From Bacteroides sp. (GTDB lineage: Bacteria > Bacteroidota > Bacteroidia > Bacteroidales > Muribaculaceae), in assembly GCA_014802265.1 (NCBI GenBank), contig JAAVCP010000026.1:1-64000 (forward strand): a stretch of 64,000 nt of DNA. The letters are read 5' to 3'. The notes beneath the pieces were generated by a model, which worked only from the letters and a program-made list of their open reading frames with translations, made no database searches and was not told where the DNA came from. The position numbers were made by a program, and so were the translations under genes. Positions 15,540 to 40,981 of this stretch are shown in pieces. Position 1 is the stretch's first letter, and each line of letters opens with the position of its first letter.

Positions 15540-16613
15540 TTATTTAAGGTATTCTTTATAGAATGCTGCAATCTCGTCAAATGGAATAATATCTATTTGA
15601 TCATAGAGGTCGCAGTGTGTTGCGCCATTTATTGTGAGAAGCTGCTTGTTGTCGCCTTTCAGCTTAGCGAATGTATCTTTGCCGAAATAGTAGGAGTGGG
15701 CTTTATCTCCATGCACTATCAGGACTGCATTGTCTAACTCATCCGCATACTCAAAAAACTTGAAGTTTATGAATGGTAGGCTGGAGGTGACATTCCAGCC
15801 ATCGGTTGAATTACCTGAGCGTGGGTGGAATCCTCTTGGCGTTTTATAATATGCATGATAGTCTTTTACAAACTGAGGAGCGTCGTCTGGCAGTGGATCC
15901 ACAACCCCTCCGGCACGTGAGTATTCGCCATTACGATAATCCTCAGTGCGCTGTTTTGTCATGGCAGCACGGTTGGCGTTTCGTTTCTCTTTTGAGTCAT
16001 CGGTATCGAAATAGCCGTTGGCACTTACACGGGTCATATCATACATTGTGGAGGCTACGGTAGCCTTTATACGCGGATCGTTGATGGCAGCCTCTATTGC
16101 GATGCCACCCCAGCCGCATACGCCGAGAATTCCGATACGCTCAGTGTCAACCTCCGGCTGTACAGACAGGAAATCGACAGCAGCTGAGAAATCTTCAGTG
16201 TTTATATCCGGTGACGCGACACGACGGGGCATTCCACCGCTTTCTCCGGTGAATGAGGGATCAAAGGCGATGGTAAGATAACCGCGCTCGGCAAGCTGTT
16301 GGGCATAAAGTCCGCTTGACTGTTCTTTTACGGCTCCAAATGGACCGCTGACGGCGATAGCCGGAAGTTTCCCGGTTATGTTTTTCGGTGTATACATATC
16401 AGCGGCAAGGGTTATTCCGTAACGGTTTACGAATGTGACCTTTCTATGATCTACTTTTTCACTTTTGGGGAATACTTTGTCCCATTCCTGTGTAAGGGTC
16501 AGTTGTTCTGTCGGAGCAATTGACCGGTTTGTGTTTGGATTATTCATAGTTTGTGAATATGAGCTTATAACTCCTGCTGAAAGGAGGCATATTGATATGA
16601 TTATATTTTTCAT
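15540..16613 (-). CDS. Exported alpha/beta hydrolase, dienelactone hydrolase/YcjY-like
   Basis: 357 residues with a signal peptide (IIISICLLSAGVISSYSQ). The nucleophile elbow reads GVCGWGG, so Cys takes the usual Ser position, as in dienelactone hydrolases and the related Bacteroidetes family. The oxyanion region (PAIAVSGPFGAVKEQ), an Asp (VLIVHGDKAHS) and the His (NGATHCDLYDQ) are in place. Such genes often travel with AraC regulators, aldo/keto reductases and sugar O-acetyltransferases; here that link is a shared operator with the distant 39202 gene rather than adjacency. The substrate is unknown. The gene is probably transcribed alone. Confidence 0.8.
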   Translation of the reverse strand: MKNIIISICLLSAGVISSYSQTMNNPNTNRSIAPTEQLTLTQEWDKVFPKSEKVDHRKVTFVNRYGITLAADMYTPKNITGKLPAIAVSGPFGAVKEQSSGLYAQQLAERGYLTIAFDPSFTGESGGMPRRVASPDINTEDFSAAVDFLSVQPEVDTERIGILGVCGWGGIAIEAAINDPRIKATVASTMYDMTRVSANGYFDTDDSKEKRNANRAAMTKQRTEDYRNGEYSRAGGVVDPLPDDAPQFVKDYHAYYKTPRGFHPRSGNSTDGWNVTSSLPFINFKFFEYADELDNAVLIVHGDKAHSYYFGKDTFAKLKGDNKQLLTINGATHCDLYDQIDIIPFDEIAAFYKEYLK

Positions 16614-16714: not shown

Positions 16715-16775
16715 CAAAATTAGTAAAGATTTATTTCAAATACAGACCTAAATTATGGCAATTCAGACCTAAATT
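16715..16775 (-). promoter_or_regulatory. Promoter with two direct-repeat operators, probable AraC-type activator site
   Basis: The -7 box reads TAATTTTG on the minus strand (16722-16715). No good TTTG lies at the expected -33 position; instead the first of two identical 12-base repeats (plus strand CAGACCTAAATT) starts there at 16743-16754, and the second is at 16764-16775, a 21-base period. The same arrangement is seen upstream of 39202. A site where an activator substitutes for a missing -33 element is the simplest reading. Confidence 0.65.
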
Positions 16776-38638: not shown

Positions 38639-39202
38639 TCATATATTTTTGATAACCTTTGCCGGGATTCCACCGACAATCGTGCGTGGTGGCACATTCT
38701 TGTTCACTACTGCACCTGCGGCTATAACGGCTCCCTCTCCTATAGTCACTCCTTGAAGAATAGTGACATTAGCCCCAATCCAAACCTTATTGCCAATTTT
38801 TACTGGTGCCGGAATCATATCTGCGCGGTGATCCGGATCTATTACATGATTGAGTGTGGCTATCACACAGTTATGACCCACAAGCACATCGTCACCTATA
38901 GTTATGCCTCCCTGATCCTGAAACTTACAACCGGAATTTATAAAAACACGTTTACCTATTTTAAGATTTTTACCGCAATCAGTATAGAAAGGAGGAAACA
39001 GCCCTAAACTATCATCAACTTCAGTACCTGTCAGTTCTGACATAAGTGCCACTATCTCATGATGATTATGATAAGTGTTGTTTATTTCCATTGTGATGCG
39101 AATTGCTTCCTGACTCAATTCGTGCATTTTGGTATGGATTGGAGTGCCTCCGGGTATAACATCGCCGGAATCCATTATATGGATAAATTCTTCTGTTGTC
39201 AT
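38639..39202 (-). CDS. Sugar O-acetyltransferase (maltose/galactoside acetyltransferase type)
   Basis: 187 residues, standard length. An N-terminal helical Mac-type segment is followed by left-handed beta-helix hexapeptide repeats ([38 protein letters not shown]) and the closing [17 protein letters not shown]. The catalytic His lies in [18 protein letters not shown]. It transfers acetyl from acetyl-CoA to a sugar, perhaps in detoxification. It is divergent from an AraC gene, whose product probably controls it through the repeats at 39261-39293. Confidence 0.9.
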
Positions 39203-39232: not shown

Positions 39233-39293
39233 CAAAATTAGTGTGGATTTATGGAAATAACAAACCCAGATTTGGGTAATCTAGACCTTAATT
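39233..39293 (-). promoter_or_regulatory. Promoter with two direct-repeat operators before the sugar acetyltransferase
   Basis: Minus strand TTTG (39264-39261), 20 bases, TAATTTTG (39240-39233). Two related 12-base sites read on the plus strand CAAACCCAGATT (39261-39272) and TAGACCTTAATT (39282-39293), 21 bases apart. They match the perfect pair at 16743 and 16764 in 9 and 10 of 12 positions and lie at exactly the same offset from the -7 box (+28 and +49). Confidence 0.65.
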
Positions 39294-39300
39294 ACTGATA

Positions 39301-39334
39301 TTTGATTCTGTGCCATAAAAAAGCATTATATTTG
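39301..39334 (+). promoter_or_regulatory. Predicted promoter of the AraC gene, possibly leaderless
   Basis: TTTG (39301-39304), 22 bases, TATATTTG (39327-39334). The ATG starts at 39339, about where transcription should begin, so the mRNA may have almost no leader. Confidence 0.5.
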
Positions 39335-39338
39335 TAGC

Positions 39339-40250
39339 ATGAAACAGAATTCAATAGTTGTAAGACTCGACTCAATAGATGCCTATAACAAATTGTATGG
39401 GCTTGAGACAAAACATCCTTTGGTGACAGTGATAAATCTTAACGAGGCAACCAAAGTAGTAAATCATGTTCGGATGGACTATGATGTCTATGCGCTTTTT
39501 CTTAAAAACGGAACGAATTGTAAGATTAAATATGGAAGGCGACCGTATGATTATCAGGAAGGCACTGTTGTCAGTTTTTCTCCGGGACACCTGGTGGATG
39601 TTGACATGGAAATTGATGAGATTGCTCCCAATGTCATTGGACTAATGTTTCATCCTGATCTTATCTATAAAACTAATTTGGCATCAAAGATAAAGAGATA
39701 TAGCTTCTTTGATTATTCTCAGCGTGAGGCAGTGCATCTGTCGGCAGCTGAAAGAAAGACTTTTATAGAATGTCTTGAACGGATAAAAGGAGAGATTGAA
39801 CACCCTGTAGATAAACACACCGCTGCTATAATTACAAGTCATATACAACTCCTTCTTGATTATCTCACACGTTTCTATGAACGGCAGTTTATCACCCGCA
39901 GTAAAGTTAATTCTGACATACTTAATAAATTTGAATCTGCATTGAAAGAGTATTTGGCATCAGGGCAATCAAAGGAAGGAATACCAACTGTAAATTATTT
40001 CGCAGAATTAGCACATCTTACCCCGGGATATTTTGGTGATATGATTAAGAAAGAGACAGGCATAACAGCTCAGGAGATTATCTCCCGTAATATTGTTGAA
40101 ATTGCAAAGCAGCGCCTCTCAGAATCAAATGATGACATAAGTATAATAGCCTACGAATTAGGGTTTCAATATCCACAACATTTTTCCCGTATGTTCAAAC
40201 GTGTCACAGGAATTAGTCCAACGCAATTCAGAGAGAAATCAGCCATTTAG
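39339..40250 (+). CDS. AraC family transcriptional regulator
   Basis: 303 residues. The N-terminal ~190 residues form an AraC-type ligand-binding (cupin-like) domain. The C-terminus has the two HTH motifs: ELAHLTPGYFGDMIKKETG and DDISIIAYELGFQYPQHFSR, ending FKRVTGISPTQFREK. It is divergent from a sugar O-acetyltransferase. This regulator group in Bacteroidetes often controls adjacent reductase, hydrolase and acetyltransferase genes. The shared 21-base-spaced repeats at 16743-16775 and 39261-39293 are probable targets. Confidence 0.92.
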   Translation: MKQNSIVVRLDSIDAYNKLYGLETKHPLVTVINLNEATKVVNHVRMDYDVYALFLKNGTNCKIKYGRRPYDYQEGTVVSFSPGHLVDVDMEIDEIAPNVIGLMFHPDLIYKTNLASKIKRYSFFDYSQREAVHLSAAERKTFIECLERIKGEIEHPVDKHTAAIITSHIQLLLDYLTRFYERQFITRSKVNSDILNKFESALKEYLASGQSKEGIPTVNYFAELAHLTPGYFGDMIKKETGITAQEIISRNIVEIAKQRLSESNDDISIIAYELGFQYPQHFSRMFKRVTGISPTQFREKSAI

Positions 40251-40296: not shown

Positions 40297-40981
40297 GTGA
40301 TAGGAAGATATCCGAATAACTTCAGATTTCTCCGGTCACCCTTTGCCATATTAAAGTATATTAGGTATATAAATTACTCTTCTGAGAATACTGTTGCCGG
40401 TTTGCAATTAGGTAAATTAATGAATAATTTTCGTCTGGTGGAAATGGTTCTTAACGGTGATTATATTGGACTCTATTTTCTGACTGAAACAATACGCATA
40501 GATAAAAACCGCGTCAATATCTATGAACAGCAAGACGGTGAAACAGATCCGGAGCTTATAACGTTAGGCTGGCTTATAGAGGTAGATAACTATAAAGATG
40601 AATGTCAGATAACCTTACTGGAAAATGACAGTTGGAATCTGACTCTGCGCTATCATTCTCCTGAATATTTATCAACACAACAGTTGCAATGGTTTACTAA
40701 TGAGTTTAATACAATAAATTCCGCAATATACTCAAACGATAAGAATTCAACAGACTGGGAAAACTATATAGATGTGGAAAGCATGGCACGTTTCTTTATC
40801 ATTCAGGAAGTAATGGATAACCCCGATGGTTTTCATGGCAGCTTTTATTTGCATAAAGATTTGTCAGAAGATGCAAAGTGGATAGCGGGCAATCTGGGAT
40901 CTTGTGTGCTATAATCAGGAGAAGACCGATTACACTTTCAAAATGAAAGCACATTATAGGATTGGATTACTTGGGGATTAG
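40297..40981 (+). pseudogene. Broken CotH-kinase family gene
   Basis: The frame from the GTG at 40297 encodes a piece of a CotH-like kinase: AGLQLGKLMNN, MVLNGDYIGLYFLTETIRID, EVMDNPDGFHGSFYLHKD. It then runs off at ~40891 into WIAGNLGSCVL and stops at 40914. Shifting by one base at 40892 restores the family sequence (IWDLVCYNQEKTDYTFKM) up to a stop at 40979-40981. Restoring AGPIWD would need the loss of two bases to be undone. The N-terminal ATP-binding part and the C-terminal half are missing, and the 3' end runs 15 bases into tilS on the other strand. Confidence 0.75.

Follow-up and report, generated by a model that had tools for sequence, protein, structure and literature searches.

Paired 21-bp direct repeats as probable operators of an AraC-family regulator at two unlinked promoters of a Muribaculaceae genome

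The window, a 64,000-nucleotide stretch of DNA from a Bacteroides sp. genome, carries a gene for a sugar O-acetyltransferase with hexapeptide repeats (38639–39202, minus strand) and a gene for a 303-residue AraC-family regulator (39339–40250, plus strand), which are divergent as read from the window sequence. The spacer between them contains two direct repeats, and a similar pair lies 22 kb away in front of an alpha/beta hydrolase gene (15540–16613, minus strand). This arrangement raises the question of whether both pairs are operators of the AraC-family protein, such that the two enzymes form one unlinked regulon. The acetyltransferase is nearest to the NCBIfam maltose/galactoside O-acetyltransferase, with scores below the cut-offs. 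The hydrolase is Peptidase_S15/DLH-like, with a signal-peptide-like start as judged by eye.

The Bacteroides promoter consensus, as quoted in the available part of PMC7366714, is TAnnTTTG at −7 and TTTG near −33. In the window sequence, minus-strand −7 boxes TAATTTTG (plus-strand reading CAAAATTA) were located at 39233–39240 for the acetyltransferase and at 16715–16722 for the hydrolase. On the acetyltransferase side, the promoter-proximal half-site CAAACCCAGATT occupies 39261–39272 (plus strand), with its ACC at 39264, and the promoter-distal half-site TAGACCTTAATT occupies 39282–39293 (plus strand). On the hydrolase side, the half-sites CAGACCTAAATT lie at 16743–16754, the −33 position, and at 16764–16775 (both plus strand). 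The preliminary description had placed both pairs at +28 and +49 from the −7 box, 21 bp apart, with two perfect copies at the hydrolase promoter. These offsets are exact, and both hydrolase copies, at 16743 and 16764, are perfect CAGACCTAAATT. The copies at 39261 and 39282 are identical at 7 of 12 positions, so the acetyltransferase-side repeats are imperfect. The proposed repeat word CARACCYAAATT proved too narrow: the paired 21-base repeats are real, but their core is ACCnnnATT and the preceding bases vary. The CAAA at 39261–39264, within the proximal half-site, could serve the acetyltransferase promoter as its −33 TTTG, whereas the hydrolase promoter has CAGA in this place.

The probable −7 box of the AraC gene, TATATTTG (39327–39334, plus strand), ends 4 nt ahead of the ATG, so a leaderless mRNA is probable. 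A gap of this length recurs upstream of homologues, in 13 of 50 regions of one set and in 6 of 78 of another that overlaps with it. Leaderless mRNAs are termed rare in the part of PMC7366714 available. An inverted repeat at 39265 (CCCAGATTTGGG), spotted by eye, was dropped because it is not kept in relatives. Directly downstream of the AraC gene, a short ORF (40297–40914) matches the CotH kinase profile over positions 61–207 of 322 only and is probably a truncated remnant, judging from the profile match.

Counting single copies of the motif in the window was uninformative. With up to two mismatches the repeat word occurs 10 times against 7.1 expected, an absence of enrichment that would suit a chance likeness of two AT-rich promoters. 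The pair pattern, allowing up to three mismatches, matched only at these two places in the 4.47-Mb genome, compared with one match of the reversed control. Nevertheless, the pair, box-plus-core and core patterns were written from sites already seen, so own-genome matches to them are not independent. A matrix was built from 28 AraC-homologue upstream regions with the window's genome excluded; its training sites were picked for the 21-bp ACCnnnATT core, a choice of which the motif-free, hydrolase and window tests are independent. The two highest scores in the window are at 39260 (26.8 bits) and 16742 (23.3 bits), and the third is 11.5 bits. Under a first-order Markov null, scores of 20 bits were reached at 2 of 76.8 million positions and of 23.28 bits at none; with other seeds the corresponding counts were 3 and 1 in 96 million. 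Pooling these runs leaves one position in 172.8 million at or above 23.28 bits, an expectation of about 0.0007 per 64-kb window on both strands. Two maxima in the initial 20 simulated windows, 21.7 and 22.5 bits, lay above what the large runs predict. With a matrix from foreign genomes ranking both sites top, a single null position as high, and conservation of the repeats, the chance reading is in effect refuted.

The spacing was also recovered independently of any motif. Sixty AraC neighbourhoods were fetched, two of which (L094 and L122) gave no AraC ORF by gene calling; 62 AraC ORFs were reduced to 57 within length and identity limits and to 50 non-redundant ones. Of these 50 upstream regions, 26 match themselves at 10 or more of 14 bases at spacing 21, while no other spacing from 14 to 45 did so in more than 9. 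The second set comprised 80 named loci, 78 with enough upstream DNA, from which 8 regions overlapping the first set were removed to leave 70. Here spacing 21 was found in 29 regions and the runner-up, spacing 28, in 17. The shared core reads ACCnnnATT, 12 bases, ACCnnnATT, often followed by nnnGA. Matrix scores of at least 15 bits were reached by 28 of the 70 second-set regions and by none of 1400 mononucleotide shuffles; the other 42 regions have no such pair in the expected orientation. Repeat pairs of this type are also present at the loci of two commensal laboratory strains, Phocaeicola vulgatus ATCC 8482 (L230) and Bacteroides xylanisolvens XB1A (L235/L238).

The geometry relative to the promoter is nearly fixed. 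Among regions with a CAAAnnTA box within 60 nt, to which these counts apply (the remaining regions have no such box), the distance from the start of the box to the first ACC is 31 or 32 nt in 22 of 24 AraC regions of the first set, 16 of 17 of the second and 13 of 13 hydrolase regions. At this distance the near half-site covers −33. Direct repeats with a 21-bp period, the near one at the −33/−35 element, are an operator feature of the AraC/XylS family that is thus present here.

The product of the gene at 39339 has a C-terminal AraC-type helix-turn-helix, with Pfam matches to HTH_18 (residues 222–299, E = 1.6e-18) and HTH_AraC (E = 7.9e-9). Its N-terminal part has no Pfam match, though it is conserved among homologues. 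Two alignments were made, A1 from 35 fetched homologues plus the window and A2 from 52 of the 80 named loci plus the window, with L212 excluded for a stop codon. The AraC (2k9s), SoxS and MarA chains match the A1 family profile. All 36 sequences of A1 and all 53 of A2 have a cysteine at residue 60/61, within the N-terminal part; in the window it is residue 61 (39519–39521). Some match to the protein was found in 59 of 61 genomes. Within the genus there are 57 matches with E = 1e-75 or better, spread over 48 of 111 genomes. In orthologues of 80–82% identity (L112 and L114–L116), AGACC pairs are kept while the divergent gene encodes a flavodoxin, so the repeats follow the regulator rather than one target.

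Relatives were likewise informative on the link between the two targets. A hydrolase match was found in 42 of 61 genomes. Of the 22 hydrolase upstream regions surveyed, window included, 13 have a pair in the correct orientation that scores 15 bits or more; no training site is among them, and in 12 of these 13 the box lies at 31 or 32 nt. The other nine have no such pair; one is shortened by a contig end and some lie inside operons. Unlinked hydrolase promoters in other genomes retain the repeats. A pair near the hydrolase of G019 (L271) is in the opposite orientation and was not counted.

When 58 AraC loci were clustered by gene content, a hydrolase of the same kind was found within 7.5 kb in 25 and an acetyltransferase in 16. 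The corresponding figures for the named set of 80, which shares some loci with the first, are 27 and 19. Hydrolase and acetyltransferase genes are adjacent on one strand beside an AraC homologue in L119, L129, L140 and L143, and the same adjacency recurs in the named set (L185, L193, L197, L233 and L259); in several such relatives the two-gene unit is divergent from the AraC homologue. In G003 (L265) and G001 (L270) the two genes are adjacent with a pair in front, and the fetched stretch contains no AraC gene. Because the genes are neighbours in relatives, the unlinked layout in the window is best read, from gene order, as a split two-gene unit of which each part has kept an operator. Other families recurring beside AraC homologues are Flavodoxin_4, FMN_red, Fe-ADH, aldo/keto reductase, carboxymuconolactone decarboxylase, cyclophilin-like, DUF362 and HxlR. 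Upstream of an FMN reductase gene in G085 (L269, 2890–2949), two overlapping pairs make three half-sites in 21-bp steps.

A lack of paired-motif enrichment at promoters had been named beforehand as a refuting outcome. Across the genus, 18 of 111 genomes contain the exact core pattern, with 22 matches in all, while its reversed control has 6. Fourteen of the 22 precede hydrolase, acetyltransferase, aldo/keto reductase, FMN reductase, carboxymuconolactone decarboxylase or DUF3737 genes, seven of these beside an AraC homologue (in L182 only a fragment) and seven away from one. The eight matches not accepted lie in open frames of 172–966 codons. Four of the accepted ones (L164, L176, L179 and L182) are also in frames, of 145–356 codons; what spoke for keeping them was a known-family gene beginning directly downstream. 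With the window's genome left aside, 19 matches remain in 17 of 110 genomes against 6 in the control, which is the enrichment looked for. Eleven of the 19 precede regulon families: six are beside an AraC homologue, one only a fragment, and five are away from one (L168, L174, L176, L177 and L178), L176 and L178 having already been seen in the hydrolase upstream survey. The AGACC form of the pair gave 9 matches in 9 of 111 genomes, L081 (G030) among them, versus 2 in the control. The TTACC form by itself showed no enrichment, its 4 matches in 4 of 111 genus genomes comparing with 8 for the reversed control, and a pattern with 20 fixed bases was found in none of 198 genomes at the level of the order, probably because it is too strict. 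The proposed unlinked regulon of acetyltransferase and hydrolase is therefore supported by genus sites before the same families and by the adjacency in relatives.

In the window's own genome the core pattern, with at most one mismatch, gave 7 matches against 1 for the reversed control. Four precede genes: the acetyltransferase/AraC spacer, the hydrolase, and sites on C57 and C12. The other three, one of which scores 16.5 bits, lie inside open frames of 274–948 codons and were discounted. The C57 candidate (21.5 bits) is ahead of a carboxymuconolactone decarboxylase-cupin gene, and the C12 candidate (21.8 bits) is ahead of a DUF3737 gene followed by aminotransferase and MatE genes. Such scores are at about the chance level of once per four whole genomes. 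Weight is given to these sites because their families also occur beside AraC homologues, carboxymuconolactone decarboxylase at 13 of 58 loci and DUF3737 at 7 of 80. The core pattern combined with the −7 box matched three times against two in the control, which is weak on its own; two of the three matches precede regulon-family genes and are the 21.5- and 21.8-bit sites. By motif and gene company, the C57 and C12 sites probably belong to the regulon of the 39339 product or to that of a paralogue. The regulon had been described as a small one with two targets; both targets are supported, but at least two more candidate sites are present in the genome. In this part of C12 (L267, 5141–9076), the candidate operator also faces divergent genes that match Steroid_dh (3-oxo-5-alpha-steroid 4-dehydrogenase), Oxidored_FMN and short-chain dehydrogenase.

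Taken together, the two 21-bp direct-repeat pairs are very probably operators of the AraC-family protein encoded at 39339–40250, as far as sequence comparison can tell. A dimer would bind the two half-sites head to tail, with the proximal half-site over −33, and by contact at −33 would assist RNA polymerase in engaging the TAnnTTTG promoter. This would switch on the acetyltransferase and also the hydrolase, which lies 22 kb off. The protein probably controls its own gene as well, since the acetyltransferase-side pair also lies directly upstream of the AraC gene's own promoter.

Activation rather than repression is suggested by the geometry. A dimer over −33 might instead block RNA polymerase until a ligand releases it, and the position of the proximal half-site would allow this; the acetyltransferase promoter moreover keeps a TTTG at −33, as would suit a promoter working unaided. 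Nevertheless, the fixed 31/32-nt distance and the CAGA in place of CAAA at the hydrolase promoter suit activation, and AraC-family proteins with this operator layout are mostly activators. We regard repression as rather unlikely. As to which protein reads the sites, LytTR-type regulators also use direct repeats of about this period. The period is all that speaks for them, while the repeats accompany AraC homologues and Pfam gives only HTH_18 and HTH_AraC in the neighbouring regulator, with no LytTR domain, so that such a reader is barely conceivable.

A closer competitor is another AraC protein, or several overlapping paralogues. The window's genome is rich in AraC matches, at least 24 at E = 0.001 or better among the 38 of 58 candidates scored, and two are close and full-length; the second is L111 on contig C89, with 46–47% identity. 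The ACCnnnATT core is common to AraC homologues of 44–82% identity, and pairs occur in genomes without a close homologue. A 36.5-bit pair, among the strongest seen, precedes the hydrolase (L263, 4244) in G041, a 96% complete genome of another family whose best AraC match has E = 1.8e-10; this operator may be read by another protein. G017 and G003 likewise combine a strong hydrolase operator with the lack of a close AraC homologue. Since G003 has AGACC, the idea that AGACC marks only the subclade of the window's AraC was dropped. In G132 (L134, 5354–7170), a flavodoxin-acetyltransferase operon carries an AGACC pair with no AraC gene beside it, which is either an orphan operator or the trace of a lost regulator. 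Against a paralogue as the reader in the window, only the 39261 site among the four own-genome sites adjoins an AraC gene, the 80–82% orthologues keep the AGACC variant beside their own gene, and the L111 upstream region has no pair in the usual orientation, only a weak opposite-orientation pair seen by eye. Control by L111 or other paralogues is accordingly judged improbable, and the 39339 product is preferred as the regulator.

As the signal for the 39339 product, a reactive or redox-active small molecule would be the likeliest candidate. The neighbour families of the homologues (flavodoxin, FMN reductase, aldo/keto reductase and Fe-ADH) suggest this, and by analogy an electrophile or redox response is entertained tentatively, as a reading with about a third of our credence. 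It is possible, though on balance doubtful, that the system is a Bacteroidales thiol-stress regulon, in which the AraC protein with the constant cysteine would sense an electrophile or oxidant and induce partly exported proteins (the hydrolase, flavodoxin, carboxymuconolactone decarboxylase-cupin and cyclophilin-like protein) together with reductases and the O-acetyltransferase. Its genes would have been reshuffled between species with the tandem operator travelling along.

The analysis yields a regulon and an operator code, both open to test, for an AraC group present in many Bacteroidales records, with a single proposed response linking several enzymes whose roles are unclear. Genes that adjoin each other in relatives but are dispersed in this genome can be connected again through their operator sequence. 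With the ligand in hand, the promoter layout could serve as an inducible switch.

E. coli AraC binds araI1-I2 as direct repeats with a period of about 21 bp, the near one overlapping a core promoter element. The likeness extends to the repeat period, the near repeat over the core promoter element and the AraC-type helix-turn-helix. The system described here differs in its half-site and promoter class, has no arabinose genes, and its regulator has an N-terminal part without a Pfam match.

By gene company, a further likeness is to E. coli YqhC, an AraC/XylS activator divergent from yqhD (an alcohol dehydrogenase-type aldehyde reductase) and the aldo-keto reductase gene yqhE(dkgA) (PMC5297802, PMC8262776), in a system that responds to glyoxals according to the available part of PMC5297802. 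Homologues of the window's AraC protein repeatedly have Fe-ADH and aldo/keto reductase genes nearby, and in L141, L144, L145 and L152 the AraC gene is divergent from both; in the window, by contrast, the companion genes are those for the acetyltransferase and the hydrolase. The likeness to RclR, an AraC-family oxidant sensor acting through Cys21 and Cys89 in the excerpted account of PMC7464077, is looser: here one cysteine is constant, at residue 60/61, and its role is only conjectured.

Among titles and abstracts of the open-licence literature, no paper was found that describes this gene set or motif as a regulon. PMC10434189 shares several terms and, in the part available, merely lists single B. 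thetaiotaomicron genes. The nearest precedent is that of the AraC-family L-rhamnose regulators of Bacteroides, for which direct repeats with a 21-bp period are reported in the accessible portion of PMC3870299. The likeness is one of period. Those regulators have sugar-catabolism targets, whereas the proposed targets here are a hydrolase, an acetyltransferase and redox proteins; no rhamnose-catabolism family was found among the 15 gene clusters of at least four AraC loci or among the genes named behind the genus-wide sites. Judged from its sequence features, the circuit appears to be genuine though unremarkable, related gut bacteria carrying such sites before the same few kinds of gene, and the proposed regulon would be a further member of a kind already known, that of 21-bp AraC repeats in Bacteroides.
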